Shown here: positions 2,603-19,306 of the stretch, one piece after another
How positions within the stretch are numbered: position 1 is the first letter of the stretch
Layout: every line of letters starts with the position of its first letter
Origin: Pseudomonas kermanshahensis
Lineage (GTDB): Bacteria; Pseudomonadota; Gammaproteobacteria; Pseudomonadales; Pseudomonadaceae
DNA length: 64,000 nt
Assembly (NCBI RefSeq): GCF_014269205.2
Contig: NZ_JABWRY020000002.1
Span: forward strand, 89,501-153,500
Reading direction: 5' to 3'
The notes under the pieces: model-generated
Told to the model about the DNA's origin: nothing
The model's database searches: none
What the model saw: the letters and a program-made list of their open reading frames with translations, nothing else
Program-made: the position numbers and the translations under genes

Positions 2603-3142
2603 TTACAACGGCGTTTTTCGCCAAACCAGCCAAGGCTCGACCACCTCGTCCAATTGCGCTTGCGGCACGGCCCCGAAATAACGGCCATCGAACGACAAGC
2701 GGCTGTAATCGGAGAGCATCAGCACCTCGTCGCTGCCCAAGCGGAAGTGCGCCAACGGTGGCTGCGGCATGGGGCGGCCACTGGGGTCTTGCTGCAACGG
2801 CTGGCTAGGCACCTGCAACTGCCCGTTGACCCTGACCCCCTCGGCAGTGATCTGCACGTCGTCACCCGATACCGCGACCAGCCGCTTGAGCAGGTGCATG
2901 TATCCCCCAGGGCAGGTTCCCCCAGCCAGGTAGCCGCGCGCGTGCGCTAGCTGAAACACAGCCTCCTGCGGCGGGCAAAACATCACCAGGTCGCCTTTTT
3001 CCGGTGCCTTGTCGACCACCCAGTAAATGCCCGGCGGAAAACTGCTGGTGACGTTGAGCCGCGCGCCGCCCCACAGCACCAGCGGCACTGCGCAAAACGC
3101 CAGAATGGCCACGACAGCGGCCACGCTCAACGGCCGTTTCAT
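2603..3142 (-). CDS. traF: TraF-type conjugation peptidase (S26 family), pilin maturation
   Basis: A membrane-anchored serine peptidase of 179 residues. In RP4, TraF trims the TrbC prepilin and joins its ends into a cyclic pilin. An N-terminal membrane helix (residues 7-24) precedes the catalytic region. The nucleophile is Ser34 in SFPPGIY, the SxPxG pattern of this branch, and the general base is Lys86 in HLLKRLVAV, giving the Ser-Lys dyad of the S26C group. The start overlaps the traG stop by 4 nt (ATGA), indicating translational coupling. It is the last gene of the T4SS block. Its natural substrate is the trbC product encoded at the other end of the cluster. Confidence 0.93.
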   Translation of the reverse strand: MKRPLSVAAVVAILAFCAVPLVLWGGARLNVTSSFPPGIYWVVDKAPEKGDLVMFCPPQEAVFQLAHARGYLAGGTCPGGYMHLLKRLVAVSGDDVQITAEGVRVNGQLQVPSQPLQQDPSGRPMPQPPLAHFRLGSDEVLMLSDYSRLSFDGRYFGAVPQAQLDEVVEPWLVWRKTPL

Positions 3143-4962
3143 GCCGGCAACTCGATGGTGCGGTCGCTTTCACGCGGTGCCGGCACCTTGGCGCGGGCCA
3201 AGAAGACCGGGTCCTGGAAGTACAGCGGTTGCTTGCCATAAAACGCCGGGTAGCCTGCGCAATACACCACCATGTCGCCGGCTTCCTGGATATTGCCCTG
3301 GCCATCCTTGCGTGGGCCTGGCATGCGCAGGGCCTCGTCGGTGGTCAGCAGCGGTCGCTGCACTTCCTGAAGGGTGCGCGACACCTGGCCCAGCAATGCG
3401 CTGGAACGTCGCCCGCTGGTGGTCACCTGCTCTTTGACGATGGTGGTCTGCCCGGTGAGCTTGGACAGGTGCTCCGCCGTTTCCACCCGGTTTGGCGGGT
3501 AGGCGTTCTGGATGTGGCAGTTGGAGGTGATGCTCTCGTTCTGCCCGTAGAACTCCTGCAACTGCGACAAATCTTGGATGATCAGGTAGCACTTGATGCC
3601 ATAACCGGCCACGAAAGCCAGCGACTCCTGCATGATGTCCAGCTTGCCCAGGCTCGGGAACTCGTCGAGCATCATCAGCAGCCGGTGCTTGTAGTGCGCC
3701 TTGGGCCGGCCGTCCTCGAAGTCCATCTTGTCGGCCAGCAAGCGCACGATCATGTTCACCAGGATGCGCACCAAGGGGCGCAAGCGCGCCTTGTCGTTGG
3801 GCTGGGTGATGATGAACAGGCTGACCGGGTCGTCGTGGTTCATCAGGTCGCGGATCTTGAACTCCGAGCGGCTCACGTTGCGCGCCACGATCGGGTCACG
3901 GAACAGCGACAGGTACGATTTGGCGGTCGACAGCACCGAGCCGGCCTCTTCGGCAGGCCGGTCGAGCATGTCACGTGCAGCCGACCCCACCAGCGGGTGG
4001 TTTTCGCCATCGAGGTGGCCGTAGTGGGTCATTTCCGCCCACAGCTCGCTGATTGGCCGCGACGGGTCGGCGAGCATGGCGTCCAGCGCCGGCAGGCTGG
4101 CGACACCACCTTCGTCCTGCGAGCGGTAGCACAGGTGCAGGATGCAACCCACCAGCATCGCCTGCGAGGTCTTCTGCCAGTGGTCGTTGAGGCCCTTGCC
4201 GTCCGGGTCGACGATCAGCGTGGCCAAGTTCTGCACATCGCCCACTTCAAACTCGGTGCCCAGGCGGATTTCTTCCAGCGGGTTCCAGCCCACGCAGCCA
4301 TTGGCGGTGGCCGGCTCGAAACGCAATACCCGGTTGCCCGCATGCTGCTGGCGCCAGCCAGCGGTGAGCGCCCAGAGTTCGCCCTTGAGGTCGGTGATCA
4401 CCGCGCTGTGCTTCCACGACAGCAACGTCGGAATCACCAGGCCAACGCCCTTGCCGCTGCGCGTCGGGGCGAAGGTGAGGATGTGCTCCGGGCCGTTGTG
4501 GCGCAGGTAATGCAGCTTGTTGCGCTTGTCCAGCCAGGCGCCTACGTACACGCCATCATCAGCCAACAGGCCGGCGCTCTCGATATCCTTGCGCTCGCCC
4601 CAACGCGCAGAGCCATGAAGGAACTGATTGGCCTTGGAGCTGTTGCTGCTGATCATGCGGATCACGACCATCGCCATCATGCCGACGCCGCTGACCAGAA
4701 CCCCCAGGGACCCGGCGCGCAGCAGGGTGTCCTGGTACTGATCGGACCAGTTGGCGGCCCATACCAGAATCATCCATGGGGCGTAGACGCCATTCAGGTT
4801 GGCCCCCAACGCCGCATGGTTATTGAACAGGTAGGCGAAGTACTGGGTGGCAGTAGCCAGGCCGGCCAGCAGGCAGAAAATGGCCAGGATGGCCTGCCCC
4901 GTGTTGCCGCCACTGCGCTGGCCGCCGCGGATCTGCGGGCCCACAGCGTTGTTATGTTTCAT
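3139..4962 (-). CDS. traG: VirD4/TraG-type T4SS coupling ATPase
   Basis: The coupling protein selects substrates and feeds them to the secretion channel at the inner membrane. The 607-residue protein has N-terminal membrane helices (about 24-46 and 84-103), a Walker A motif APTRSGKG at about 165-172 and a Walker B motif LLMMLDEF at 428-435, followed by the conserved SLGKLDIMQ and IIQDLSQLQ segments. GGAG is 7 nt before the ATG at 4962. It precedes traF as in the RP4 Tra1 region. A coupling protein kept without a relaxase in the same cluster suggests it recruits a protein substrate, or a relaxase encoded elsewhere. Confidence 0.96.
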   Translation of the reverse strand: MKHNNAVGPQIRGGQRSGGNTGQAILAIFCLLAGLATATQYFAYLFNNHAALGANLNGVYAPWMILVWAANWSDQYQDTLLRAGSLGVLVSGVGMMAMVVIRMISSNSSKANQFLHGSARWGERKDIESAGLLADDGVYVGAWLDKRNKLHYLRHNGPEHILTFAPTRSGKGVGLVIPTLLSWKHSAVITDLKGELWALTAGWRQQHAGNRVLRFEPATANGCVGWNPLEEIRLGTEFEVGDVQNLATLIVDPDGKGLNDHWQKTSQAMLVGCILHLCYRSQDEGGVASLPALDAMLADPSRPISELWAEMTHYGHLDGENHPLVGSAARDMLDRPAEEAGSVLSTAKSYLSLFRDPIVARNVSRSEFKIRDLMNHDDPVSLFIITQPNDKARLRPLVRILVNMIVRLLADKMDFEDGRPKAHYKHRLLMMLDEFPSLGKLDIMQESLAFVAGYGIKCYLIIQDLSQLQEFYGQNESITSNCHIQNAYPPNRVETAEHLSKLTGQTTIVKEQVTTSGRRSSALLGQVSRTLQEVQRPLLTTDEALRMPGPRKDGQGNIQEAGDMVVYCAGYPAFYGKQPLYFQDPVFLARAKVPAPRESDRTIELPA

Positions 4963-5007
4963 GGGTTCGCTCCGTGAACGAAAGGATGGGATAGGGAAGG
5001 TGCTGGT

Positions 5008-5562
5008 TCATGGCGAGGTTGTGCGCGAACGCCCGATGTCCTGGGCCTGGGTACGCCGCTGCGCCTCAGAAAGCGTGCGCTCGGCCTGACGCTGCAAGCT
5101 CCATTGCTCGACCAGCTCTGGCTGCTCGGCGCGCAGTTGGCGCACCGCCAACTCCTCGATGCGTGGGGTGTACAGGCCCATGCCGTGGTGCAGCTCCTGC
5201 ACCCGCTCCAGGCGGCCTTGCAACTGCTGCAGCCGCGCCTGGCAACGCTGGTTGCCCTGCTCCCAGGCGGCGCGGGTGGAGGGCAGGGCCAGCCAGCCCG
5301 GGCGCGAGGCCTGGTTCTGCTGCAATTGCGCCTGTTGGCGGTCCAGCATGGCCTCCAGGCGCTGCTCCAGGGCCCCGGCCTGCTCGGCCTTTTGCTCGAC
5401 GCATTCGCCAAGGGCCTGGTTGTAGCGTGCTTGCACCGGGCTGGCGTCCAGCAGCGCGGTCTGCTCGGCGGCCAGCGCCTGAGCTTGCGCCTCCAATGCC
5501 TGCCCGGCATCGTCGAGCGGCGGCTTGGGCGGTTTAGGCTCGTTCATGGGCATCTGCTTCAT
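5008..5562 (-). CDS. Coiled-coil protein of unknown function in T4SS operon
   Basis: I do not recognise this 184-residue protein. It starts with a proline-rich stretch (MNEPKPPKPPLDD) and continues as a highly charged, Gln/Glu/Ala/Leu-rich region predicted to be almost entirely helical coiled coil, without signal peptide or membrane segment. The ATG at 5562 overlaps the stop of the upstream traX-like gene as ATGA, so I prefer it to a longer frame reaching 5610. Its place between the pilin-modifying gene and traG suggests a cytoplasmic accessory factor, perhaps an adaptor or chaperone for the coupling protein. That role is inference only. Confidence 0.8.
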   Translation of the reverse strand: MKQMPMNEPKPPKPPLDDAGQALEAQAQALAAEQTALLDASPVQARYNQALGECVEQKAEQAGALEQRLEAMLDRQQAQLQQNQASRPGWLALPSTRAAWEQGNQRCQARLQQLQGRLERVQELHHGMGLYTPRIEELAVRQLRAEQPELVEQWSLQRQAERTLSEAQRRTQAQDIGRSRTTSP

Positions 5563-6278
5563 ATCAGGAAGAGGTATCCGGCCTTGGCCATTGGGATGCG
5601 AATCAGCCACAGCGCCAGCAGGTGCAGCGGGTAATAGGCGTAGAACAGCCAGCGCCAGCGCGGCAGGTCAGGCCTGACCCAGCGGGCGGCCAGCAGCACC
5701 GGCAACGCGGCCAGCGCCCAGGCATTGCCGTTGATCGGCGTTAACGCCGCAAGTGCAAGCACGGCCCCCACAGCAGCCAGCAGGTTCGGGCGCCGCACGT
5801 ACCAACCCACACACAGCCCCAGCAGCACGGCCGGCCACCAGAATTCGACCCAGGCACCGCCCACGACCACCACCAGTAACGCCAGCCCCCAGAACAGCGG
5901 CCGCCCTTGCGCAGCACGGTCGCAGGCCTCGGTCGCCAGGGTAATCACCAGCAACGTGAAGAGGATGTTCAGCGGGTAGCCGCCGTACAGCAGCCCTCCA
6001 AGGGCAATGAACGGCGGCGTCGCCAACACCCCAAACAGAAACAGGCGCAGCGCAGTGCGCCGGTAAGCACCGTTTTCCACTGTTCCCGGCCGCGCCAGGT
6101 TGTACGCCAGCACGACCACGAACAGCGGCATCGCCAAGCGCCCTGCCTCGAACAAGTAAGGCAAGGTCTCGTTGAACAGGTACTTGTTCACGTGGTCGCC
6201 GGTCATCAGCAACAGCGCCAGCCACTTCAGCGCTTCTACCGTACCGTCGGCGAGTTGCAGGCGCGGCATCGAAATCAC
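5559..6278 (-). CDS. trbP: TraX/TrbP-family integral membrane protein
   Basis: A multi-pass membrane protein of about 239 residues in the TraX family. The F-plasmid member N-acetylates pilin; the RP4 counterpart is TrbP. The family opening is visible (ALKWLALLLMTGDHVNKYLF), followed by about eight hydrophobic helices and a C-terminal aromatic-rich segment (LFYAYYPLHLLALW). The start is a GTG at 6278 overlapping the stop of the upstream lipase gene as GTGA; an ATG three codons later (6269) is possible. Its overlap with the upstream and downstream genes makes it an integral member of the operon. Confidence 0.88.
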   Translation of the reverse strand: MISMPRLQLADGTVEALKWLALLLMTGDHVNKYLFNETLPYLFEAGRLAMPLFVVVLAYNLARPGTVENGAYRRTALRLFLFGVLATPPFIALGGLLYGGYPLNILFTLLVITLATEACDRAAQGRPLFWGLALLVVVVGGAWVEFWWPAVLLGLCVGWYVRRPNLLAAVGAVLALAALTPINGNAWALAALPVLLAARWVRPDLPRWRWLFYAYYPLHLLALWLIRIPMAKAGYLFLI

Positions 6279-7990
6279 CGACGCATCGCCTGAGAAAGCC
6301 CGGTATCGAGCTCCAGCTTCGGCGCCACATCACGGGCCAGGTCGCCGATGCCTTTCTCGTGGACGATCGCCGTGCTCTTGCCTACCTGGAAGTTGCGGCT
6401 CGGGTCGACGTCACGGCGGTCATGAATGACGAACTGGTCGGTCTGGCCGACCTTCTGCAGGATGTGGTGCTCGTCCATGTCGACGACCATCCCGCTGACG
6501 GCCTTGCGCCCACTCTCCGAGGCTTCACCGATGCTGGCCGACGGGTTCAGGCCGCGGGCTTTGTCTTCCATGGCCTTGAACGAGTCGCTGCGCTGCTGGG
6601 CCTGCGGGTCTTGCTGCTGGGCCTGCGGGTCTTGCTGCTGGCCCTGCTTGGCGCCCTCAGGGACTGGCACCGCTTGCAGGTTCAGGCTCTCGATATAACC
6701 AGCGCTGGGCCGTGAAGCCTTAAGCTCGCCAGACAGCGTAGCCACTTGCTGCTGTGAAGTGGCGGCCCTTTCCGACATGAGCTCGGCATACAGCCCTTTG
6801 CCCTCTTCTATCGCCTGCTCGCGCGTGTCAATGCCCAGGAAGCGTTTCGAAGCGGACAAGGCATCTTGCCCCAGCGATTTAAGACGATCACCGATCCCCT
6901 CAACGGCTCTGGAAACGCTGTTGCGGCTAAGCCGATCATCGTTCTCGAAGATTACCCCGCGGCCATTGGTCTCGTGATCGAAGGGGCGAGCCTGGCGGTC
7001 AAAGACGTTGATCATGCCGCGTTCCATCGGGAAGGGCATATTGTCCACTGTCTGGAACGAGCCATCCGCGTTGCGGCTGAACGCGTTCTCACCCTTCAAC
7101 AGGCGCGAGTCGATGAGCGCTTGCTCAACTTTCTCCGGGCTTTTGATCAACGTGTTGTACTGCTCGATGCGCTGAACATCCTCCTGCTGCATCGGCTTCA
7201 TTTCTATACCGGCCGACTGCAGGCGATCGTGCATCACCGCCAATGGCCCGGCTGCCAGCACATCGTCCTTGTAACCACCGCCGACCTGCGAATGCGCGCC
7301 GGCAAACTTCAACTCCTCGATGCGCGAGTTGTCGTCGTTACGCAGGGCACTGGTCAGGGGGAACGTGTCGCGGTACTCGTTCATCGCCACCAGGTGGGTG
7401 GTCGAATCGATGTTCTTGCTGATCTCCAGGTTCTTGCCCAGATGGGTATCGGTATTCGACAAACCGTCAGTGGCGACCGTGTCGAAGATACCCAGCTTGT
7501 TGACGTGCGCCTGGCCTGGGGGAATCAAGTATTCCCCGGTCGCTTTGCCCTGGTCATCGAGTTTGGGGACGCCACGTTCGATGAACTCGTTGGCCAAGGC
7601 GCGGGACTGCGATGCACCGCGGCTGAAGCCGACAATGTTGACGTCGATCTGCTGGTCCGGGTACTTGTTGTGAAAGGCCACGATGGAGTCGTAGGCCTGG
7701 TCGATACGCTCCTGGGCACCCCGGCCGGTTGCGCCTTCGAGCAGCGAACGCCCGCTGGTACTGGATTGGCTGCCAACACCATCGAAGTAGATCTTCTCCG
7801 ATTGGCCGGAGCGCTCCTTGGCGTCGTACTGCTGCGGTTCATGCCCCGAATTGCGCGCCAGGTTGGTACCTTTGGCGGTGTCCAGGTCATACAGGCGGGC
7901 AACGTTGGTCTGCGTGCCTTCAGGTGTATTCAGGTCTTTATTGTTACCGGTGCCGTCGAAGTACACCGTAAAACGCATTGCATCGCTCAT
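6275..7990 (-). CDS. DUF2235 (Tle1-like) alpha/beta hydrolase with KfrB-like C-terminal domain
   Basis: A 571-residue protein in two parts. Residues 5-240 match the DUF2235 hydrolase domain of Tle1-type T6SS phospholipases. It opens with YFDGTGNN and has a nucleophile elbow GFSRG (Ser123), an acid in IFDTV (Asp170) and a histidine in FAGAHSQVGGGY (His233), so the triad looks intact. A helical middle and a Gln-rich linker (about 450-467) lead to residues 495-550, which resemble the KfrB domain of IncP-plasmid proteins (SGMVVDMDEHHILQKVG, then VIHDRR). There is no signal peptide. It lies inside the trb operon between trbN and trbP. I infer a lipase cargo of this T4SS; the KfrB assignment is from pattern memory and is less certain than the hydrolase. 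Confidence 0.87.
   Translation of the reverse strand: MSDAMRFTVYFDGTGNNKDLNTPEGTQTNVARLYDLDTAKGTNLARNSGHEPQQYDAKERSGQSEKIYFDGVGSQSSTSGRSLLEGATGRGAQERIDQAYDSIVAFHNKYPDQQIDVNIVGFSRGASQSRALANEFIERGVPKLDDQGKATGEYLIPPGQAHVNKLGIFDTVATDGLSNTDTHLGKNLEISKNIDSTTHLVAMNEYRDTFPLTSALRNDDNSRIEELKFAGAHSQVGGGYKDDVLAAGPLAVMHDRLQSAGIEMKPMQQEDVQRIEQYNTLIKSPEKVEQALIDSRLLKGENAFSRNADGSFQTVDNMPFPMERGMINVFDRQARPFDHETNGRGVIFENDDRLSRNSVSRAVEGIGDRLKSLGQDALSASKRFLGIDTREQAIEEGKGLYAELMSERAATSQQQVATLSGELKASRPSAGYIESLNLQAVPVPEGAKQGQQQDPQAQQQDPQAQQRSDSFKAMEDKARGLNPSASIGEASESGRKAVSGMVVDMDEHHILQKVGQTDQFVIHDRRDVDPSRNFQVGKSTAIVHEKGIGDLARDVAPKLELDTGLSQAMRR
6592..6641 (-). repeat. 21-bp in-frame tandem repeat in the lipase linker
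   Basis: Two full copies (6592-6612 and 6613-6633) and an 8-bp partial copy of a 21-bp unit encode repeated QQDPQAQ heptapeptides in the linker between the hydrolase and KfrB-like domains. The length is a multiple of three, so copy-number change would keep the frame. This is the type of tract expected to vary in length between strains. Confidence 0.85.
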
Positions 7991-8058
7991 TTCATATCCC
8001 TATGGATCATCCCGCCGCCAGGACAGGACGAACGCTCCAAGACATTCTCGAACCCGTA

Positions 8059-8766
8059 TCAGGCACCCGGTTTGTTTAGGGTCACGATCAGATCGTGGAC
8101 ACCATCACCGGCGCTTCGGGTGTAGCGTTCGAAGAATGCTTCGCCCAAGTTCAAGAGTGGGGACCCTCGCAGCGACTGCCCGGCAGCACGGATCGCCAAA
8201 GCACCATAGCTTTCGCCCATGGCGGCAACACTCTTGGTGCGGTCAGCGGGATTGTCGTAAGGCTTCTGGTACCAGGTCGAAATCTGATACTCGACGTTCT
8301 GCGCCTCCAGTGCCTCATTGAGGTGTTTGGCCAGCGCGAAGAGCGACTCCTTGATCAGGGTGGGGTCAATTCCCTCAGCCTTCATCACCGCTTCTACAGG
8401 TAGGGCAGCAGCGCCAATCAAGTCCTCATGGGTATAACCCTTCATCGGCGGGAACACGCCTTCGGGGAGTTTCATGCCCGGGGTGTAGGGCTGGTACTGG
8501 CCTTGATTGTCTTGCATGGAAAGCTCCTTGGCTTGAAGTTCAGAAGAGGTGGCAGGCAGGAGCATGCAGGCTCCCAGCACGAGGGGTACGAGCGCGCCAA
8601 GGCGCAGCCGCGGCCAGAGGCGGCTGGGGCGGCGCGATGCCTTGTCGGTAACGGGGGTGCCCATACCGAGAGTGGGTAGGTTCAATCTTTCTCTCCTTGC
8701 ATCCGCCTCGCGGCGGGTCCCTGTATCGTTTCGAGATGCGGCTACTGTGACCAGCGAATCCATCAT
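8059..8766 (-). CDS. Putative lipoprotein of unknown function next to T4SS lipase gene
   Basis: I do not recognise the family. The mature part (about 150 residues after LSMQDNQGQYQPYTPG) looks soluble and helical. A basic segment (RPSRLWPRLRLG) and a hydrophobic stretch end in a lipobox-like VLGAC, consistent with export and lipidation. Two starts are plausible. The ATG at 8766 overlaps the trbN stop (ATGA) and has GGGGAG upstream. A TTG at 8685 has AAGGAG 7 nt upstream and gives a more normal signal-peptide length. I list the longer form. It occupies the place of RP4 trbO and directly precedes the lipase gene, so it could be an immunity lipoprotein or a T4SS accessory; both are inference. 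Confidence 0.8.
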   Translation of the reverse strand: MMDSLVTVAASRNDTGTRREADARRERLNLPTLGMGTPVTDKASRRPSRLWPRLRLGALVPLVLGACMLLPATSSELQAKELSMQDNQGQYQPYTPGMKLPEGVFPPMKGYTHEDLIGAAALPVEAVMKAEGIDPTLIKESLFALAKHLNEALEAQNVEYQISTWYQKPYDNPADRTKSVAAMGESYGALAIRAAGQSLRGSPLLNLGEAFFERYTRSAGDGVHDLIVTLNKPGA

Positions 8767-9368
8767 TTGCTCCCCATCACCAGCCCACGTGGCACGTAGG
8801 CTGACGTGCCCACGGGTTGCGGCATGACCGGCTGCTGCACGACAGCCGCCTTCACCGCCTGCGCGGTGTCGACCACTGCCACGGACGCCTCGGCCGATGC
8901 GCCGGAGAATACCGCGCTCTGCGCCACCTGCTGGGTGGCAAAGCGGGCATCCAGCCAATCGGCCCAGTAGACGGCGCGGCGCATGATCTGTTGGCGGTAG
9001 CGCGCATTGATGGCGGGGGTGCGCGAGTGGTAATTCGCCACCCGCGTCCACAAGTCGCCGCGGTCATTGCGCACGTGGCCACGGATGCGCCAAGCGGCCA
9101 GCTCATAGGAGTAGCAGCCGCCTTGCTCGACATCCTCAGGGGTGATGCCGTAGCGCGAGAGTTCGCGCAGGTAGGCGGTATTGAACTGCATGGGGCCGAC
9201 GTCGTAGGTGCCATTGTGGTTGCGCACCCACTGGCCAGGCTTGCCACCTTCCTGGCCGGACACGGCCAGGACGATGTTCACCGGCAGCTCGTATTTGACC
9301 GCCGCCATGATCGAGCAGGCGATGGGTTCGCTCAAGGCCGGGGGCGGAACGTCAGCGACGAATGGCAT
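8763..9368 (-). CDS. trbN: VirB1/TrbN-like lytic transglycosylase
   Basis: A peptidoglycan-cleaving enzyme that opens the wall for T4SS assembly. The 201-residue protein has the SLT-type core in the first 140 residues. The catalytic Glu40 sits in VSGQEGGKPG, followed by YDVGPMQFN and AAWRIRG, which match the substrate-groove motifs. A Val/Ala-rich tail of about 60 residues follows. No clear signal peptide is seen, as for some TrbN/VirB1 proteins. It lies 11 nt after trbM and overlaps the next gene by 4 nt. The order L-M-N matches RP4. Confidence 0.9.
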   Translation of the reverse strand: MPFVADVPPPALSEPIACSIMAAVKYELPVNIVLAVSGQEGGKPGQWVRNHNGTYDVGPMQFNTAYLRELSRYGITPEDVEQGGCYSYELAAWRIRGHVRNDRGDLWTRVANYHSRTPAINARYRQQIMRRAVYWADWLDARFATQQVAQSAVFSGASAEASVAVVDTAQAVKAAVVQQPVMPQPVGTSAYVPRGLVMGSK

Positions 9369-9379
9369 CGTGGCGCGCC

Positions 9380-9682
9380 TCAGATGACCTTGCCGAACTT
9401 GTTATTGATCGACTTGGTCTTTCCCGAGTCGGCGGCCTCGCATTTGTCGAGGAAGGACTGGCGAGCGTCCGAGGTCTGGCTCAGTTTGATCTTGCCCTTC
9501 TTCTTTTTGACGATGCTGAAGTAGTCATTGACCGGGCCACTGCAGTTATCGACCACACCCGCCCCCTTGAGCTTGCCCCACATGCACAGCACAGTGGCGC
9601 AGGGGTCTTTGGCCTGGGCGGGCAGGGTGACGGCGAAACTGGCGGCTAGCACGGCGGCTGGAAGAACCTTTGCAATTTTCAT
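9380..9682 (-). CDS. trbM: TrbM/KikA-family small periplasmic T4SS protein
   Basis: A 100-residue exported protein. A signal peptide (to about residue 24, ending LPAQA) precedes a small cysteine-containing domain with CATVLCMWG, CSGPVNDYF and FLDKCEAA, the pattern of the TrbM family. The molecular role of the family is poorly known. AAGGAG lies 5 nt before the ATG at 9682, preferred over a GTG two codons earlier. Its position between trbL and trbN is the same as in RP4. Confidence 0.85.
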   Translation of the reverse strand: MKIAKVLPAAVLAASFAVTLPAQAKDPCATVLCMWGKLKGAGVVDNCSGPVNDYFSIVKKKKGKIKLSQTSDARQSFLDKCEAADSGKTKSINNKFGKVI

Positions 9683-9695
9683 GAGCACTCCTTGT

Positions 9696-11450
9696 TCAAG
9701 TCCTGTCCTGTTTGCTTTCGCTGAAGTTTTTCACTTCAGCATCGGGTTCGAAGTCACGGCTGGGCGATCGGGTGTCCAAGTTCGAACGGCTGCTGGAACC
9801 GGGATCGGAGATTTCATTGGCAATGCGCCCGGCAAGCGACTTGTCGATGCGGGACTGCGCAACCCGCCCCACGCCAGAGGCCAGGTTGGCGCCCATTTGC
9901 AGGGCTACGCGGCCTGCTGATGCCATCTTGCTGGATGCTGCGTTGCTGCCCCCCTCTGCAGTGCCATCCTTGCCACCGGTGGCACCCGTGCCACCCTGTG
10001 AACCCGAACTGCCCTCGGCAGATCCGCCGCCGCCGGCTGATGCCGCCTCTGCAGCGCCAGAGCCGGAGCCCCCTGCTGAAGATGACTCTGATGCCCCACC
10101 CGCGCCAGATGCGCCGGATGCCCCCTCGGACGAACCGCCACCGGAAGATGCACCGGATGATTCAGCACCTGACGATGATTCAGAGGATCCACCCCGAGAG
10201 GACGATTCGCCTCCCGCAGACGAGGCCGCCTGGGCAAGGCCTGATGAGGCCGAAGATGCCGAGGAGGCCAAGCCCATTACCGAGCCGAGCGGGCTGGCAC
10301 CGCCATTGGAGCTGCCGCCGCCAGTGCTCCCTCCACTTGAGCTACTGGGTGACCCCAGCATCCCCGTCATACGCGACGCGATATCCCCACCGGCGGAGGC
10401 CGTCGACTGCGCGCCCTTGAAAGCGGAATGCAAGGCCTGCGCGGCGCCCATCAGGTTCGCCCCACCCGTCATCATCGCCGAGGCGCTCTTGCCCATCATC
10501 GACGCAGCGGTGGTTGCAGCCCCCACTACGGCGCCAGCACTGAAGTTGCCGATGCCGGTAGAAGCACTTCCGGCGCCGCCCACCAGGGCTGCAATCATCG
10601 GCGGTATCTTGTTCACCAGTATCAACAGCAGCACCGAGGTCACCATCATGACCGCGAGTTCCTGCACGGCAACTTTGTCACTGATACGGGCGGCAAAGGT
10701 CAGGATAAAGCTCTTGCCAATCGCAACCAACAGCACCATGGCGAACAGTTGCGCGCCAAGCCCCAGTACTGCGCGGAAGTAGTTAAGCGCCATATCAGAC
10801 GTCCAGCGTGAGCCGCCAAAGCCCAAGAAGAACACCCCCGCGTACAGCAGGAACCAGCTTGATGCCAACAGCACCAGCAGGTTGATAGACACGATGGCCA
10901 GCACCAGCAAAATACCAATGGCCATGAACTCCATCGTCAGCTGGCGGCCCATTTGGTGCCAGCTCAGTTTGCTGGTTGCCTTGACGGTCTTGTCATAAAG
11001 CTCGAACCCCAGGTCGACGATGGAGGACGGCTTCAGCTCGGTATTGCCGATGTGCCCCGCAGTGGCGCCGAGTTGGCTCATCGACTTGACGATGCTGTCG
11101 GCGATTTTCAGCCCGCCCATCGCGTTCTGCAGCAACCACCAATACAACCCAAACACCACCATGAAACGGATGAGTTCGGAAAAGAACTCGCCGATGTCGG
11201 CTTTTTTCATCAGCAACATGCCGAACGTCCAGACCATGGAGATGGACGCCAGGGCAAAGAACAGCCGCGTTGCAGCGCCTTGGATCGCTGGCAACCAGGT
11301 GCTGGTGGCGCTATGGAACCTCTCAAGCACCTCATCCATGACACCTGAGCTGCCTAACTGCCCTGTCGCCGCATGGGCAAGCGTCGGAGTTGCGAGGCAA
11401 ACAGCAACCAGCAGTACACTCAGGAACAGTTCCCGACGCGTGCCAATCAT
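9696..11450 (-). CDS. trbL: TrbL/VirB6-type polytopic inner-membrane channel protein
   Basis: A VirB6-class membrane protein forming part of the inner-membrane T4SS channel. The first 290 residues contain a signal-like N-terminus and about six hydrophobic helices, with typical segments (LIRFMVVFGLYWWLL and WFLLYAGVFFLGFGGSRWT). From about residue 330 to 510 the chain is low-complexity Ser/Gly/Ala, then a charged tail (about 530-584). The RP4 homologue also has a long hydrophilic tail, but this one is unusually serine- and glycine-rich. The start at 11450 lies 15 nt downstream of the trbK stop, and the gene follows the trb order. Confidence 0.93.
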   Translation of the reverse strand: MIGTRRELFLSVLLVAVCLATPTLAHAATGQLGSSGVMDEVLERFHSATSTWLPAIQGAATRLFFALASISMVWTFGMLLMKKADIGEFFSELIRFMVVFGLYWWLLQNAMGGLKIADSIVKSMSQLGATAGHIGNTELKPSSIVDLGFELYDKTVKATSKLSWHQMGRQLTMEFMAIGILLVLAIVSINLLVLLASSWFLLYAGVFFLGFGGSRWTSDMALNYFRAVLGLGAQLFAMVLLVAIGKSFILTFAARISDKVAVQELAVMMVTSVLLLILVNKIPPMIAALVGGAGSASTGIGNFSAGAVVGAATTAASMMGKSASAMMTGGANLMGAAQALHSAFKGAQSTASAGGDIASRMTGMLGSPSSSSGGSTGGGSSNGGASPLGSVMGLASSASSASSGLAQAASSAGGESSSRGGSSESSSGAESSGASSGGGSSEGASGASGAGGASESSSAGGSGSGAAEAASAGGGGSAEGSSGSQGGTGATGGKDGTAEGGSNAASSKMASAGRVALQMGANLASGVGRVAQSRIDKSLAGRIANEISDPGSSSRSNLDTRSPSRDFEPDAEVKNFSESKQDRT

Positions 11451-11465
11451 GTGCGTAATCCCACC

Positions 11466-11502
11466 TTAGTATTTGCCTTCCGGGCTTTTCTCAAACTTCC
11501 AC
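11466..11502 (-). repeat. Direct repeat, copy 1: 3' end of trbK
   Basis: Thirty of 37 bases match 11722-11758, which is the 3' end of trbJ. Both copies encode a tail of the form W-x-(F/Y)-EKSPEGKY and a stop codon. Confidence 0.85.
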
Positions 11503-11711
11503 TCGGTCATTTCCTGCGCCGCGTTGAAGCTTCTGCACCCGTCGATGAATTCGTTTCGATTGGCCTCTTTAGAGAGGCTCGACAGGTTCTTTTCATAGGT
11601 GCCTTTGGCGCAGTTTTCGGCCGTTGGCTCAGGGACTTTTTCCTCGGAACAACCGGCCAGGTTGAACAGCACGCCCACGGCGATGGCGAGTTGCAGAATT
11701 TTGCTCTTCAT
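11466..11711 (-). CDS. trbK: Small lipoprotein, TrbK/Eex-like entry-exclusion candidate
   Basis: An 81-residue lipoprotein with lipobox LAGC (Cys21). It has two further cysteines in the short mature part. In RP4 the lipoprotein between trbJ and trbL is TrbK, which blocks entry of related plasmids into the cell. Position and architecture support the same assignment; sequence alone is weak. The start at 11711 has GAGGA upstream, so I rejected an upstream frame running through trbJ. Its last residues (EKSPEGKY) are identical to the end of TrbJ. Confidence 0.75.
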   Translation of the reverse strand: MKSKILQLAIAVGVLFNLAGCSEEKVPEPTAENCAKGTYEKNLSSLSKEANRNEFIDGCRSFNAAQEMTEWKFEKSPEGKY

Positions 11712-11721
11712 GGTGCTTTCC

Positions 11722-11758
11722 TCAGTATTTGCCTTCAGGGCTTTTTTCGTATTCCCAC
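11722..11758 (-). repeat. Direct repeat, copy 2: 3' end of trbJ
   Basis: Partner of 11466-11502 (30 of 37 bases identical, same reading frame). The repeat could reflect duplication of the end of one gene onto the other. Confidence 0.85.
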
Positions 11759-12522
11759 GTCGTGACGCGTCTTGCCTGGGCCTCACCGCGGGCCTTTTCA
11801 TCCAACTCAGCCGCCGCGCGGTTGGCAGTCGCAGACTGCTCAGCCAGCATCAGGCTGCGCAACTGCAGTAGTTGGTTGGTCTGTTGACTGGCCAACTGGT
11901 TGGCATATTGAATCGCCTTGACCTGACCATCTGCCGTGCTGGCCGCTTGCTGAAGGCGCTCCAGCTGCCTGGAATCGGCCTGCAAGTTCTCTTGTTGCTG
12001 CTTGATGCTTTTGAACAACGCATCGTTAGCCGTTTTTTGCGATTCGGAGGCCATTGCTTCATGCTCGGCGAGCTCCGCCTGGTCCTCCTCGGTGCAGGTG
12101 CCGAGGCCGAAGCAGGGTGAGCTTTTGTAGTAACTGGTGTCGCGGTACTTGCTCAGGTACGAATCAAGGCTCCCCGCCTGAGTCGTGTAGTAATTGATCA
12201 TGCTCTGGGCTTCCATCAACTTGTTGATGGTCGAATTGGCCTGGTCCCAGATATAGGCAGCCGGTGCGGCCGTGTTCTTCAACATATTCTCGTACTGGTC
12301 GAGCTGCTTCTTGTACTGCAACGCCTGGGTCGTGTACTGCTCGATCTGTGTTTTGTATTCTTCGATCTGCTTGGCCGTCTGGGCAATGTTCTCGGCTACC
12401 CCCAGCTGGCTGATGCCCGCGTGTATCCCGTCCACAACAGGGATACCGGCATGCGCCTGCAGGGTGAACCCCAGACCGGCCAGCAGCGCAATGGTGGGTT
12501 TCAACAAGGCCGTGTGCTTCAT
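11722..12522 (-). CDS. trbJ: TrbJ/VirB5-type minor pilus protein
   Basis: A periplasmic protein of 266 residues with a signal peptide (about 1-25, ending QAHA). Mature TrbJ-family proteins are long helical coiled coils. Here the hallmark regions are AKQIEEYKTQIEQYTTQ and MLKNTAAPAAYIWDQANST. VirB5-class proteins sit at the pilus tip or help its assembly and contact with the target cell. A CxxxxxC pair (PCFGLGTC) may form a disulfide. AAGGAG is 7 nt before the ATG at 12522. The order trbI-trbJ-trbK is RP4-like. Confidence 0.93.
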   Translation of the reverse strand: MKHTALLKPTIALLAGLGFTLQAHAGIPVVDGIHAGISQLGVAENIAQTAKQIEEYKTQIEQYTTQALQYKKQLDQYENMLKNTAAPAAYIWDQANSTINKLMEAQSMINYYTTQAGSLDSYLSKYRDTSYYKSSPCFGLGTCTEEDQAELAEHEAMASESQKTANDALFKSIKQQQENLQADSRQLERLQQAASTADGQVKAIQYANQLASQQTNQLLQLRSLMLAEQSATANRAAAELDEKARGEAQARRVTTWEYEKSPEGKY

Positions 12523-12544
12523 GTTGCTCTCCTTGGCAAATGGT

Positions 12545-13930
12545 TCAGTAATCGAAGGACTGGTAAGGCTTCGAGAACGTCAGGTCCTTGGTCACCATCA
12601 CGTTGAAGCGATAGCCCGGACGGATTTCGAGGGTTGGCGCGATGTTCAGGTTCTTCGAAATCATCTGCGCGGTCACCTCGCCCAACTGCTGGCCGAGCGC
12701 CTCGCTCATGGCGCTGCTGGCGGTCTCACGGTCACTGCTGTCACTGCTGGCACGGTCCTGGCTGAGGCTGATGCCGGCGACGATGCCGGACATCAACAAG
12801 GCCGAGCCGAAGATCCGTACATAGTGGTTGTTGACCTGATCGTTGAAGCCGGAATAGCCGGCGCTGTCGCTACCCGGCATCGAACCGATGTCCATCGCCT
12901 TGCCATCCGGGAAGATGATGCGCTGCCAGGCGACCAGTACCCGCGACTGGCCATAGGCCACGCTGCTGGAGTAGGAACCGACCAGGCGCGAGCCCTGTGG
13001 CAACAGCAAGTGCTTGCCGGTAGCGGTGTCGTACACAGCCTGCGCGACCTGAGCGATGATCTGCCCAGGCAACTCGGAGTTGATACCGGCAATCATCGTG
13101 GCAGGGATCACGTAGCCCGCGCGCAGCTCGTAAGGGCTACGGGGTGATTCCATGGTCACGTCCATCTTCCAGCGGTCGCTGTTCTCCGTGGTGCCGAACT
13201 GGTTGTAGTCCTTGCCAGCGTTGCTGGCGGCTTGCACCAGGAACGGCGAATCGCCCTGCGCACCGCCGCCACCGCCCCCGCCTGAGCTGATCGCCTTCAA
13301 CTCGGCCATGCGCGCCTTGTAGGCTGCGGTCGGGTCACTGCGCGAGGCCTCTTGCATACGCTGGCGTGCGGCAGCGATGCGGGCCAAGGCGTCCTGCTGG
13401 CTGGACGGGGCGCCGGCAGCGCCGAGGCTTGAGCCAGCGCTGCGCGGGGCCTCTACCCGGACGGTACTCTGCGCCCGGACGGCCTCCTGGAACTGCTGCA
13501 TCTTCATTTGGCGGATGCGTTCCAGTTCTTCACCGTTGACGCTCGGCGGCATCTCGCGCGGCGGCATAGGCGGGGCATCGAGGTTGCTCGGGCGTACCAC
13601 CTGCAAGCTGGCGGGCTGCGGTGCGGGCGTGTCGTCCAGAGTCGGCATGGCCGGCGGCTCAACTTTACTGGGGATGATCCCATCTTGGTCCATGCCATTG
13701 ATCTGCTGGGCAAACATGCTGCTGTTGCCGGCTTTTTCCGCTTTCTTTTCCTCAGGCTTGTCCTGCTCTTCGGCACGATCGGCCGCCACCAGCAGCATGA
13801 TCAGCAGAAACACCATGGCGGCGGCGCCAATCAGATAAATCGGCCAGTTGTTGACCCGACGCACACCGCTGTTGCGATGCAGTTTGCCGGGCGATGCGTC
13901 CGGCGACATGACATCGTTCTTGCTACTCAT
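12545..13930 (-). CDS. trbI: TrbI/VirB10-type T4SS core-complex protein
   Basis: This protein spans the envelope and links inner- and outer-membrane parts of the T4SS. It has 461 residues: a short cytoplasmic N-terminus, one membrane helix (IYLIGAAAMVFLLIMLLVAA, about 31-50), a proline-rich periplasmic region (about 90-140), a Gln/Ala-rich segment and a C-terminal beta domain with the family motif LLLPQGSRLVGSY. I chose the ATG at 13930; a GTG directly before it (13933) is equally served by the AAGGAG. The trbH stop is 7 nt upstream. Confidence 0.95.
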   Translation of the reverse strand: MSSKNDVMSPDASPGKLHRNSGVRRVNNWPIYLIGAAAMVFLLIMLLVAADRAEEQDKPEEKKAEKAGNSSMFAQQINGMDQDGIIPSKVEPPAMPTLDDTPAPQPASLQVVRPSNLDAPPMPPREMPPSVNGEELERIRQMKMQQFQEAVRAQSTVRVEAPRSAGSSLGAAGAPSSQQDALARIAAARQRMQEASRSDPTAAYKARMAELKAISSGGGGGGGAQGDSPFLVQAASNAGKDYNQFGTTENSDRWKMDVTMESPRSPYELRAGYVIPATMIAGINSELPGQIIAQVAQAVYDTATGKHLLLPQGSRLVGSYSSSVAYGQSRVLVAWQRIIFPDGKAMDIGSMPGSDSAGYSGFNDQVNNHYVRIFGSALLMSGIVAGISLSQDRASSDSSDRETASSAMSEALGQQLGEVTAQMISKNLNIAPTLEIRPGYRFNVMVTKDLTFSKPYQSFDY

Positions 13931-13936
13931 CACACG

Positions 13937-14380
13937 TCACTCCTTGCGTACCCAGGCCCCGGCGGCCAGCACCTGGCCGTTCTGCACCGCGTAAACACGG
14001 CTCAAGGACTCACGCCCGACCAGCAGGGTGACCCGATAGAGGTCGCTGTCCTTGGGCGCATCGACGATGTAGTTGACCTGCAGCGGCGCAACCGTACGCG
14101 CCGTTGCGGGTACCGGCTGAGCCTTAGGGTCAAATTCCTGTACCGAGAAACCGGAGGCGCGCAATGCGCTGACCAGGGATACGCCGTAGCCGTCAGTGGT
14201 TTCCTGGGCGATACGCAAGCGCGTGCGGGCCGGCGCGTGCACGACTGCCAGTTGGCGCGCGGTGGCGCTCGCCAGCTGCTGATTGATCGCCGGCGTGGTT
14301 CGGTCGGCAAAGTTGCCGTAGGGCCCGTGAGCACAACCCGCCAGCCACAGGCAAACGAAGGGTGCGATCCATGCGCGCAT
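13937..14380 (-). CDS. trbH: TrbH-like T4SS lipoprotein
   Basis: A 147-residue lipoprotein with lipobox LAGC (Cys16) followed by AHGPYGNF, typical of TrbH of P-type systems. TrbH is an outer-membrane-associated accessory of the RP4 mating-pair apparatus, found only in this T4SS branch, so it supports assignment to the P-type rather than the Agrobacterium-type layout. It follows trbG with a 2-nt gap. Confidence 0.88.
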   Translation of the reverse strand: MRAWIAPFVCLWLAGCAHGPYGNFADRTTPAINQQLASATARQLAVVHAPARTRLRIAQETTDGYGVSLVSALRASGFSVQEFDPKAQPVPATARTVAPLQVNYIVDAPKDSDLYRVTLLVGRESLSRVYAVQNGQVLAAGAWVRKE

Positions 14381-14382
14381 CG

Positions 14383-15273
14383 TTATTTACCCCTCTGAAT
14401 GGTGACGCGGTCCTGCGACTTGCCGACGCCAGCAATCAGGATGGCCTTGTCGAATACGGTGTCGACGATGTAGCGGTCGCCCTGAACCCGGTAGTTGACC
14501 ATCACGGTCTCATCATCCTTGAACCAGCCACCGTCCTTGCGCACGACCACCAGGGCCGGCGCTTCGGTCTGGCCCATGGTGCGTGGCATCTGGATAATGG
14601 TCTTGCTGCCGTCGTTGTAGACACGCACCGGCTTCCAGGAGGTTTCACCGCTGACGCTGTAGTCGAAGTTCAGGTTGCCCAGGTATTCGCCGGTCTCCGG
14701 GATGGTCGCCTTGCGGCGCTCGGTGGTTTCGCGGTTCTTGATCAGGTTCCACTTCGCCAGCGCTTCTTCCGGGTAGGTGAAGGCCACTTGCGGCATGTAT
14801 TCGGTACGGTGCGAACGCAGCTTGAAGTGGTAGGTGCGGCGGTTGGTGGTGACCACCAACGAGGTCTCCAGGCCCACATCCATCGGTTTGATGATCAGGT
14901 GCTGGACTTCGCTCTCGCCCACGCCGGTAATCGCCGGCTCGACTGTCCAGCGCGCGGTGTCGCCGAGGTTGATCGAGTTGACCTGCTCACCCGCCTGCAA
15001 GGCGATGTCGCAGACCTGCAGCACGGCGCAGACGATGCTCGGCTGCTGGGCGCCGAAAATGAAACGTGCGGTGCCGTCACCGCCATCCACTGGCTTGATG
15101 CCGGTGGCACTGGCCTGCTGCCAGCGCTGGGAAATCGCCAGTGCGGCCTTCTCCTGCGCGGTCAGGGTCGGGTTGGCATCGGAAAAGTACAGATCGGCGG
15201 CGCTGGTGCCCGGCGCAGCCTGCGCGAACGCGGGCAAAGCCGCCGCCAGCATGGCGCAAAGGTAACGGTTCAT
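14383..15273 (-). CDS. trbG: TrbG/VirB9-type T4SS outer-core protein
   Basis: A periplasmic/outer-membrane core component of 296 residues, with a signal peptide (about 1-20, ending FAQA) and an all-beta VirB9 fold suggested by the alternation pattern. The C-terminal half includes FNFDYSV-like and the conserved VYNDGSKTIIQMP segment, typical of VirB9/TrbG. GAAGGA precedes the ATG at 15273, so I rejected a frame starting 39 nt earlier inside the trbF 3' end. It forms the outer ring with TrbI and probably TrbH. Confidence 0.95.
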   Translation of the reverse strand: MNRYLCAMLAAALPAFAQAAPGTSAADLYFSDANPTLTAQEKAALAISQRWQQASATGIKPVDGGDGTARFIFGAQQPSIVCAVLQVCDIALQAGEQVNSINLGDTARWTVEPAITGVGESEVQHLIIKPMDVGLETSLVVTTNRRTYHFKLRSHRTEYMPQVAFTYPEEALAKWNLIKNRETTERRKATIPETGEYLGNLNFDYSVSGETSWKPVRVYNDGSKTIIQMPRTMGQTEAPALVVVRKDGGWFKDDETVMVNYRVQGDRYIVDTVFDKAILIAGVGKSQDRVTIQRGK

Positions 15274-15283
15274 GGTCGATCCT

Positions 15284-16033
15284 TCAGAGTTGCTTGGACC
15301 AAGAGAAGTCACGGACGTAGGTCCCGATCGGGTTCATCCGTACTTGCTCCTCGCTGGTCTGGGTAGTGGGTTCGGCGGTGTAGGTGGTGACCAGGGCGCG
15401 CCAGGTGGCCTTGCCCTTGAGCATGCCCTGGCGGTCACGGGTGACTTCTTCCCAATCCACCTGCCAGGTCTCCGGGGTCTGCTGCATGACCGAACGGATA
15501 TCGACACTGACGGTTTCTTCGGCGGCACGTACGAACGGGCTGGCCTCCTTGCTGCCGTTGAGCCACTCGTTCATTTTCTGGGTCGCCGGGTCATTCGGCC
15601 CAAGCAGGGCGTATAGCCGGAAAATGGACTTGCGCAGCAGTGCGACGTCGGGGGTGACCGTGCGCGCATCGGCGATAAAGGACGCTATCTGCGACTTGAT
15701 GACCCGCAGGTCGACCGGCACCGCGACCTGCGCAGGCGCTACAGCCATTGGCTGGCCAAGCTTGTCGACCTCCACCACGTAGGGCACGAACTTCGACTGG
15801 CTGCCGATGTGAATGATGCCGCCGACACCGGCGAGGGCGACCATCATCGAGAGGATACCCACCACCTGCCAGGACTGGCGGGAGGTCACCAAACTGCCGA
15901 CATGGTCATTCCAGGTGCGGCGGGCCGTCAGGTACGGGTTGTCGAGGACGGCGCCCTGGGGCGTCTCTGCTTTGGCGGTAGCATTGGCGGGACGCTTGAA
16001 AATGAGTCCCTTGATGCTGTCTGCGAGGTTCAT
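15284..16033 (-). CDS. trbF: TrbF/VirB8-type inner-membrane T4SS assembly protein
   Basis: A bitopic inner-membrane protein of 249 residues with one N-terminal helix (about 60-80, VVGILSMMVALAGVGGIIHI) and a periplasmic VirB8-like domain, ending with NPIGTYVRDFSW, a recognisable TrbF C-terminus. VirB8 proteins nucleate assembly of the channel. The start overlaps the trbE stop as ATGA, with GGAG upstream. Confidence 0.94.
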   Translation of the reverse strand: MNLADSIKGLIFKRPANATAKAETPQGAVLDNPYLTARRTWNDHVGSLVTSRQSWQVVGILSMMVALAGVGGIIHIGSQSKFVPYVVEVDKLGQPMAVAPAQVAVPVDLRVIKSQIASFIADARTVTPDVALLRKSIFRLYALLGPNDPATQKMNEWLNGSKEASPFVRAAEETVSVDIRSVMQQTPETWQVDWEEVTRDRQGMLKGKATWRALVTTYTAEPTTQTSEEQVRMNPIGTYVRDFSWSKQL

Positions 16034-18588: not shown

Positions 18589-18896
18589 TTGTATTGACTT
18601 CCCTGACTTGGAGGATTGTCCCTGAACGGTGTGCTACGCGCCGGGTAGTAAGGCTTGTAGCGGCGGTGACGAAGGTAGACGTGGCGCATTTTGGAGTCGG
18701 ACTTGGCCATTACGCGGAAGACGAACAGCGAGCCGAACCAGAGCACCAGGCCCACAACGGTTGCCCGTACTTCCTGGGCGCTGAAAATCAGCGCGAAGGC
18801 GAGCAACCCGGAGAACATCACCAGCTCGCGATCCCCGCCCATGAACAGGTTGTCCCGGTTGCCGGCCCGCCGGATGGGAATCGTGCGCAGCGCCAT
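18585..18896 (-). CDS. trbD: TrbD/VirB3-type small membrane protein
   Basis: A 103-residue inner-membrane protein with two adjacent hydrophobic segments (about 25-60) flanked by basic residues, the standard VirB3 layout. The N-terminal RTIPIRRAGNRDNLFMGGDRE is typical of TrbD. VirB3 partners VirB4 and is sometimes fused to it; here the two genes overlap by 4 nt. The trbC stop is 3 nt upstream. Confidence 0.93.
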   Translation of the reverse strand: MALRTIPIRRAGNRDNLFMGGDRELVMFSGLLAFALIFSAQEVRATVVGLVLWFGSLFVFRVMAKSDSKMRHVYLRHRRYKPYYPARSTPFRDNPPSQGSQYK

Positions 18897-18899
18897 ACT

Positions 18900-19292
18900 T
18901 CAGACCTGACCCTGTACCAGGCTGTGCTGAGGCAGCAGCTGTGCCAGCTCGGCGCTGGAGGTGAAGAAGCTCTGCATGATGTTGTTGGCACCCACGATCA
19001 GCGCCATTACCAGCACGAGGAAGATCAGGCTACGGAAGAAACCGTTGAGGTCGCCGCCGAAGATGAGCACACCACCAGCTACCACGATGCCAATGATCGA
19101 CAGGGCAAACGCTACCGGGCCGGTCACCGATTTACGCAGGTTTTCCAGCCAGCTTTCATAGGGCAAACCGCCGCCGGTGCCAGCCGCAAAGGCATTCTCC
19201 GGCGCAACCATCACCGCCAGCAGCAGGAAGCTGAAGGCCAGGTAGCCAAACGTTTGGGCATTGAAACGGAACAGCGAAGTGTTGGCGTGCAT
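18900..19292 (-). CDS. trbC: TrbC/VirB2-type prepilin (probable cyclic pilin)
   Basis: The major pilus subunit precursor, 130 residues. A long leader (1-36, ending AFA) precedes the mature sequence beginning at Ala37 ([12 protein letters not shown]), very close to RP4 TrbC, whose mature form starts at residue 37. Two hydrophobic helices follow (about 58-79 and 86-104). In RP4 a C-terminal piece is removed, then TraF releases the tetrapeptide AEIA and joins the ends. Here AELA occurs at 114-117, predicting a circular pilin of residues 37-113 (77 residues, against 78 in RP4). The presence of traF in the operon fits. Confidence 0.94.
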
Positions 19293-19306
19293 GTGCAGTG
19301 TTTTCC

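Follow-up and report, generated by a model that had tools for sequence, protein, structure and literature searches.

A KfrB-tailed Tle1-type lipase in a chromosomal IncP-type secretion island of Pseudomonas kermanshahensis: a probable antibacterial effector with a candidate immunity gene

Antibacterial effectors of type IV secretion systems (T4SSs) are a known kind, since the DUF2235 domain figures among the effector domains listed for the X-T4SS of the Xanthomonadales (PMC6536674) and Pseudomonas putida kills with a type IVB secretion system (T4BSS) (PMC9519443). Here we describe a gene, found in a 64,000-nucleotide stretch of Pseudomonas kermanshahensis DNA (hereafter the window; contig C2 of a 6.15 Mb genome in 24 contigs), which encodes a Tle1-like lipase ending in a KfrB domain and lies inside an IncP-type T4SS cluster. 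Judging from the sequence, we consider it likely that the product is a phospholipase effector directed against bacteria and delivered by a repurposed T4SS of the IncP type, that KfrB is its probable tag and that the gene next to it, here called X, provides immunity. We favor this view because the lipase co-occurs with a single T4SS lineage, an immunity-like gene lies upstream, one carrier genome has no match to the sheath of a type VI secretion system (T6SS), and relatives with another tail reside in a T4BSS-like cluster. An initial annotation of the window had already suggested a T4SS lipase effector with a KfrB tag; by inference this is still the best-supported reading, and our analysis amends the nature of the element and adds X as the partner gene.

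The proposed system shares traits with several described ones. Like the effectors of the Xanthomonadales X-T4SS, the lipase combines an enzymatic N-terminus with a possible C-terminal signal, and there too the immunity gene usually lies upstream, with possible dual starts (PMC6536674); in contrast, the machine is here of the IncP/Trb type, the host is a Pseudomonas, and KfrB is the only domain that Pfam names in the tail, in a scan not aimed at XVIPCD. With its Kib T4BSS, P. putida IsoF is a case of a Pseudomonas that kills bacteria through a T4SS whose cluster includes an effector-immunity pair; a further parallel is that Dot/Icm-like clusters harbor relatives of the lipase-X pair. However, Kib belongs to another T4SS class, and the main text of its report never mentions Tle1, DUF2235 or lipase (PMC9519443). 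The Tle1/Tli1 effectors of T6SSs (Protein Data Bank 6sjl, 4o5p and 9j3f) have the same catalytic domain, the same triad and a gene alongside, there an immunity gene and here a candidate for one; Tli works in two compartments (PMC10294624), and two forms of X are proposed below. They differ in that here no T6SS gene adjoins the lipase gene, which lies in a T4SS operon and specifies a KfrB tail, and X is without a credible match to a solved structure. The Fic-BID effectors of the VbhT/Bep kind also join an enzyme to a C-terminal T4SS delivery domain, in a system of conjugative descent (PMC5675462), but enzyme, tail and T4SS lineage are all different. Finally, RP4 antagonizes other bacteria with an IncP trb/tra machine, and its TrbJ and TrbK confer resistance; yet the antagonism by the RP4 and R388 machines involves no known cargo, and that of RP4 is reported to be cargo-independent, whereas we propose a dedicated enzyme (PMC11045733). 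A literature search, with most subscription papers and preprints outside its reach and one query too broad, returned no paper on this Pseudomonas Trb system or on a KfrB-tailed effector. Four features were thus not met in the literature searched: an IncP/Trb machine with a proposed dedicated enzyme, the KfrB tail, the X family, and one putative toxin pair spread across two T4SS classes.

The lipase gene and its parts are as follows.

6275-7990, minus strand: Tle1-KfrB, predicted phospholipase effector of 571 amino acids (open reading frame, PF09994 and PF18790, triad, purifying selection)
7229-7975, minus strand: Tle1-like catalytic region, made up of two PF09994 stretches (Pfam; structural relatives 9j3f, 6sjl and 4o5p)
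6341-6496, minus strand: C-terminal KfrB domain, proposed delivery tag (PF18790, residues 499-550)

The annotation of this protein as a DUF2235 (Tle1-like) lipase fused to KfrB is borne out by both Pfam models: the 571-residue sequence scores 96.3 bits with PF09994 (T6SS_Tle1-like_cat; cut-off 27) and 43.8 bits with PF18790 (cut-off 25). The Ser123-Asp170-His233 triad, which had been annotated as apparently intact, is invariant in all 66 rows of an alignment that comprises the window protein and 65 homologues (out of 120 listed, from 1651 found), with the Ser in a GxSxG-like motif, and the catalytic part aligns with the solved Tle1 proteins. The ratio of nonsynonymous to synonymous substitutions (dN/dS) ranges from 0.10 to 0.19 where dS is 0.75-1.30, and is about 0.33 in the two comparisons whose dS is close to 0.5; against the L002 homologue, dN is 0.20 and dS 1.03. 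Because these ratios are low, the open reading frame is not a chance one, and the gene is under purifying selection. The same genome encodes a second Tle1-like protein, of 438 amino acids (PF09994, 53.5 bits; L046, 6380-7696, contig C1), and no T4SS or T6SS genes were recognized by eye within the 15 kb surrounding it.

The lipase gene was first placed between trbN and trbP. These genes do lie upstream and downstream, respectively, but X intervenes between trbN and the lipase gene. The coupling to trbP through a GTGA motif stands if trbP starts at GTG 6278, which shares four bases with the TGA stop of the lipase gene; trbP could, however, also start at ATG 6269. Two starts can be considered for X.

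8059-8517, minus strand: X short form, 152 amino acids, candidate cytosolic immunity protein (ATG at 8517, AAGGAG 6 nt upstream)
8059-8685, minus strand: X long form, candidate periplasmic form (TTG 56 codons upstream, AAGGAG at spacing 7; hydrophobic leader ending ELQA-KE)

X belongs to no Pfam family and has no credible sequence match among solved structures (best E-value 0.9). Its homologues (86 matching proteins out of 146 candidates) come from Pseudomonas wherever an organism is named, apart from one compost-metagenome entry. We regard X as a candidate immunity gene because it precedes Tle1, diverges along with the lipase part and outlives the deletion of Tle1. It lies immediately upstream of Tle1 in all 15 copies examined (11 KfrB-tailed and 4 with the T4BSS-type tail; the window and L001 are near-copies), and tandem X-lipase units occur in genomes G145, G390 and G091. 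In G145, one further Tle1 is a deletion remnant whose X is intact, and this orphan X is almost the same as one of the paired X genes of G390 (dN 0.03, dS 0.07). Two additional X genes are found on contig C1 of the P. kermanshahensis genome (L076, 7239-7691; L077, 7272-7691), with no Tle1 in the surrounding 15 kb. Distances between X copies correlate with those between the lipase parts (r 0.95 over 15 pairs, 0.92 over the 11 trb-type pairs). Since shared history alone can yield such correlations, only the contrast between lipase and tail is informative: over the 10 pairs with comparable tails, a set that drops L003 and the four T4BSS-type pairs, X distance shows an r of 0.92 with the lipase part and of 0.58 with the KfrB tail.

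Some further X genes deserve mention in their own right. By eye, one of the two copies on contig C1 lies near a T4BSS-cluster-like gene and the other near a permease gene like the one flanking the T4BSS of L071. On a contig of 153487 bases from Pseudomonas sp. NPDC089752, five X homologues (P0142, P0149, P0185, P0194 and P0198) and one Tle1-KfrB (P0030) appear among the matches listed, a possible immunity array.

The existence of a longer X is suggested by the frame upstream of its ATG, which is open for 56 codons in 13 of the 14 X copies of KfrB-tailed loci, the L003 leader being shorter. Over 15 residues, the hydrophobic stretch of this leader averages 2.29-2.70 in the 13 copies and 1.65 in L003; the other two frames of these copies never exceed 1.73. 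Just before the ATG, the leaders finish with L or V, then Q or H, then A; the next two residues are K, Q or E, followed by E. Ten of the 14 copies have, at a distance of exactly 56 codons, an upstream TTG or GTG preceded by GGAG at spacing 7, and one further copy has an ATG at 43 codons; in three of the 14 no upstream start was found by that pattern. The upstream frame is broken by stops in the four T4BSS-type copies; that of L044 nevertheless stays open over 52 codons and includes one hydrophobic stretch (1.95). No A-x-A cleavage site was found in the leaders. A lipobox was also considered, and rejected as the Cys varies among copies. Dual starts have been proposed for immunity genes of X. 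citri (PMC6536674), and the Tli protein of Enterobacter cloacae, acting in two compartments, must be present in the cytosol for Tle to become active (PMC10294624).

These elements suggest the following scenario. A Tle1-type phospholipase would be made in the cytosol and delivered into neighboring Gram-negative bacteria by the surrounding IncP-type T4SS, which would have lost its DNA-transfer functions and would now serve, from the chromosome, as a weapon against bacteria. KfrB, at the C-terminus, would be an address label, read by TraG either directly or via the neighboring KfrC protein, the role of KfrC as an adaptor being a guess on our part. In the target, the Ser-Asp-His enzyme would hydrolyze membrane phospholipids. 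X would act as the immunity protein, probably made in two forms: one bearing the leader and guarding the periplasm against sister cells, the other cytosolic and restraining (or priming) the enzyme before export.

The machine that would carry out this delivery is encoded by the genes listed below.

2603-20263, minus strand: whole T4SS island, between two chromosomal genes (vacant site in 11 of 12 relatives)
19307-20263, minus strand: trbB ATPase (NF010469, 603.6 bits)
18900-19292, minus strand: trbC pilin (NF010467, 177.6 bits, slightly below cut-off 179)
18585-18896, minus strand: trbD (NF010395)
16030-18588, minus strand: trbE ATPase (NF010466, 1692.2 bits)
15284-16033, minus strand: trbF (NF010462)
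14383-15273, minus strand: trbG (NF010460)
13937-14380, minus strand: trbH (NF010457, 108.7 bits, below cut-off 160)
12545-13930, minus strand: trbI (NF010405, 288 bits, below cut-off 386)
11722-12522, minus strand: trbJ (NF010452)
11466-11711, minus strand: small lipoprotein-like gene in the trbK position (assigned by location only)
9696-11450, minus strand: trbL, with a long Ser/Gly/Ala-rich C-terminus (TIGR02783, 215.4 bits)
9380-9688, minus strand: trbM-like (NF010468, 27.5 bits, far below cut-off 259)
8763-9368, minus strand: trbN, lytic transglycosylase-like (NF010463, 298.7 bits)
5559-6278 (if GTG start), minus strand: trbP/TraX (PF05857; over the Pfam cut-off, under the NCBIfam cut-off)
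5008-5562, minus strand: KfrC-domain protein, possible adaptor (NF042916, 174.1 bits)
3139-4962, minus strand: traG coupling protein (NF010453, 1085.8 bits)
2603-3142, minus strand: traF peptidase (NF010459, 183.6 bits)

Read along the minus strand, the order is trbB-C-D-E-F-G-H-I-J, the trbK-position gene, trbL-M-N, X, the lipase gene, trbP, the kfrC-domain gene, traG and traF. With homologues of TrbB to TrbJ, TrbL, TraG and TraF in order, the cluster apparently encodes a complete IncP-type (P-type) T4SS, with TrbC, TrbH, TrbI and TrbM scoring below the NCBIfam model cut-offs and TrbK assigned by position alone. None of the scanned cluster genes belongs to a T6SS family (VgrG, PAAR, Hcp and similar). 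The trbK-position lipoprotein and TrbJ share the C-terminal residues EKSPEGKY, which might reflect a partial copy of one gene placed onto the other; TrbJ and TrbK are tied to entry exclusion in RP4 (PMC11045733). Several small lipoprotein-like genes lie near trbJ in L002 (4900-5076, 5412-5585 and 6449-6607), possibly specifying multiple exclusion proteins.

This T4SS setting was recognized from the start; the element as a whole, on the other hand, is a chromosomal island of about 18 kb in which we detected no relaxase of the two families searched, not a recognizable conjugative element. The nearest of three named loci found is that of Pseudomonas capeferrum WCS358 (L001), 98% identical. The flanking genes, named by eye, are a PA0069-like gene and prlC at one end and, at the other end, genes for a carbonic anhydrase and a SulP transporter. 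Of 12 relatives, surveyed at one locus each, 11 have the PA0069-like gene adjoining the carbonic anhydrase gene with no T4SS between them; two of the 12 have a second carbonic anhydrase gene, the second copies being outside the survey, and the exception (L098) is one of these two. The island is present at the same site in G145, G390, G091 and L001 (one flank seen for the latter) and at another site in L002 and G458/L063. The flanks (2211-2620 and 20261-20830) have no direct repeats of at least 10 bases in common. A search of the whole genome for two relaxase families, PF03432 and PF03389, gave no match. The absence of these two families, together with the chromosomal site, disfavors the idea that the lipase gene is the cargo of a conjugative element. 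The nearest conjugative relative seen is a plasmid of G344, whose TraG is 65-67% identical and whose traG is adjoined by a PF03432 relaxase gene; there trbP follows trbN, with neither X nor lipase gene, and a standalone KfrB gene lies beside kfrC.

The distribution of Tle1-KfrB follows that of the island-type TraG. Tle1 of this kind (E-value 1e-30 or better) occurs in 8 of 398 Pseudomonas genomes, in four of them with the KfrB tail. TraG matches (1e-120 or better) occur in 35 of the 398, four being of the island type (at least 93% identity). These four are exactly the genomes with Tle1-KfrB, and the other 31 TraG carriers are without it; one of the 31, G392, has a Tle1 with the T4BSS-type tail.

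The latter type of tail accounts for 15 of the 66 aligned rows (between P0045 and P0063), which have the same lipase part followed by a different C-terminus. Its genome context was seen in four genomes, G117, G081, G265 and G392. The G081 cluster, scanned in part, has DotH/IcmK, DotM and DotD matches; the other three are classed as Dot/Icm-like by similar gene content, in G392 from 14 kb only. When a tree is built from the lipase part, with 58 of the 66 rows, the 15 that have this tail form one clade (support 100/99) joined to two KfrB-tailed rows (97/99), the branching below being unsettled. Some rows carry yet other tails; that of P0048 was considered as relaxase-type, and matched only two plasmid records, one of them annotated LPD7.

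One possible route to the recognition of KfrB would involve KfrC. The two genes are side by side in two plasmids, NZ_MH043623 and that of G344; in the island, KfrB is the tail of the lipase and kfrC lies by traG. Within the stretches examined, KfrC was detected in seven of eight Tle1-KfrB loci and in none of the four T4BSS-like loci, which show no KfrB tail either. PF18790 occurs in 12 of 398 Pseudomonas genomes and in 5 of 398 genomes of a phylum sample, and most of the plasmid records matching two KfrB queries are typed conjugative (429 of 532 and 376 of 477). A Fic domain and a C-terminal KfrB are joined in one 337-residue protein (L056, 1459-2472, minus strand, on a 53 kb contig of G561). 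From this pattern, one could tentatively envision, at somewhat less than even chances, that IncP-type T4SSs in general recognize KfrB as a delivery tag, with KfrC acting as the adaptor for it at the coupling protein.

Several findings weigh against the scenario as a whole or against parts of it. In the X leader, dS is low and dN/dS ranges from about 0.3 to 1.3, so that nucleotide-level constraint or gene conversion may account for the likeness among copies. The lipase tree fits a single tail change, whose direction depends on rooting, and the T4SS context of the other tail is known in four genomes only. In the four genomes searched for it, the T4BSS-type tail is found on Tle1 alone, other matches having E-values of 0.08 or worse; in the four carrier genomes KfrB exceeds its cut-off on Tle1 alone. 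In P. kermanshahensis, the best further KfrB match scores 18.6 bits, below the cut-off. As each is found on Tle1 only, neither tail is established as a signal shared within a genome. Outside Tle1 proteins, KfrB mostly occurs in small plasmid proteins of 117-251 amino acids. The L003 locus has no detectable KfrC and no trbN-trbP setting. KfrC interacts with VirD4 in RA3, but two-hybrid assays of KfrC with TraG from RK2 and R751 are reported as negative (PMC8124265). Finally, the T6SS sheath gene VipB is present in eight of nine genomes examined, P. kermanshahensis included.

Among the alternatives, the one that survives best, though we find it rather unlikely, holds that KfrB is a regulatory or dimerization module drawn from plasmid maintenance proteins and that the delivery signal lies elsewhere in the lipase. 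The small standalone KfrB proteins of plasmids, the kfrC neighbor in the one annotated plasmid, and the lack of other KfrB-tailed proteins in the carrier genomes are in keeping with this idea. Nevertheless, what changes in the lipase of T4BSS-like clusters is precisely this part, and the fusion of KfrB to a Fic domain parallels that of the delivery domain BID in VbhT (PMC5675462).

Less probable is that X serves as a chaperone or export adaptor for the lipase and not as an immunity protein. X does precede every Tle1 copy examined, a leaderless form is possible from the ATG, and the cytosolic requirement for Tli in E. cloacae offers a precedent (PMC10294624). But X genes persist where Tle1 has been deleted or is absent nearby, and the leaders are hydrophobic; furthermore, the roles of chaperone and immunity protein are possible together.

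We think it quite improbable that the lipase is a T6SS effector that merely happens to lie in a T4SS operon and is delivered by a T6SS encoded elsewhere. DUF2235/Tle1 proteins are best known from T6SSs, and with VipB in eight of nine genomes the case against this route consists of one genome and the operon setting. That genome, G091 (a single contig with a listed completeness of 100%), encodes Tle1-KfrB twice and yields no VipB match; the scanned cluster genes include no T6SS family, Tle1-KfrB tracks one TraG lineage, and the other tail is present in T4BSS-like loci. We hold in equally low regard the notion that the T4SS is still conjugative, mobilizing plasmids in trans, and that lipase and X aid mating, whether by making the recipient membrane looser, by keeping rivals out or in some similar way: the mating-pair genes and those for the TrbC pilin, TraF, TrbP and TraG are all open frames, and RP4 reportedly antagonizes recipients with its T4SS, TrbJ and TrbK conferring resistance (PMC11045733), but the two relaxase families are missing, the chromosomal site is common to several species, the conjugative G344 relative has neither lipase nor X, and the retention of X after loss of the lipase suits immunity better.

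If the T4SS effector reading is right, an IncP/Trb conjugation apparatus would join the dedicated toxin injectors, with its mating genes kept and with no relaxase found among the two families searched. That a single lipase-X pair occurs with one tail in one T4SS class and with another tail in a second class would amount to a natural tail-swap experiment and therefore make the recognition of protein cargo by T4SSs directly testable. It would also suggest a candidate function for KfrB and KfrC; of the 532 plasmid records that one KfrB query matches, 429 belong to the conjugative type. Should the more tentative idea of a general tag and its adaptor hold as well, two enigmatic plasmid "survival" genes would turn out to encode a protein-export recognition pair, and KfrB-tailed proteins such as Fic-KfrB would be transferred toxins.

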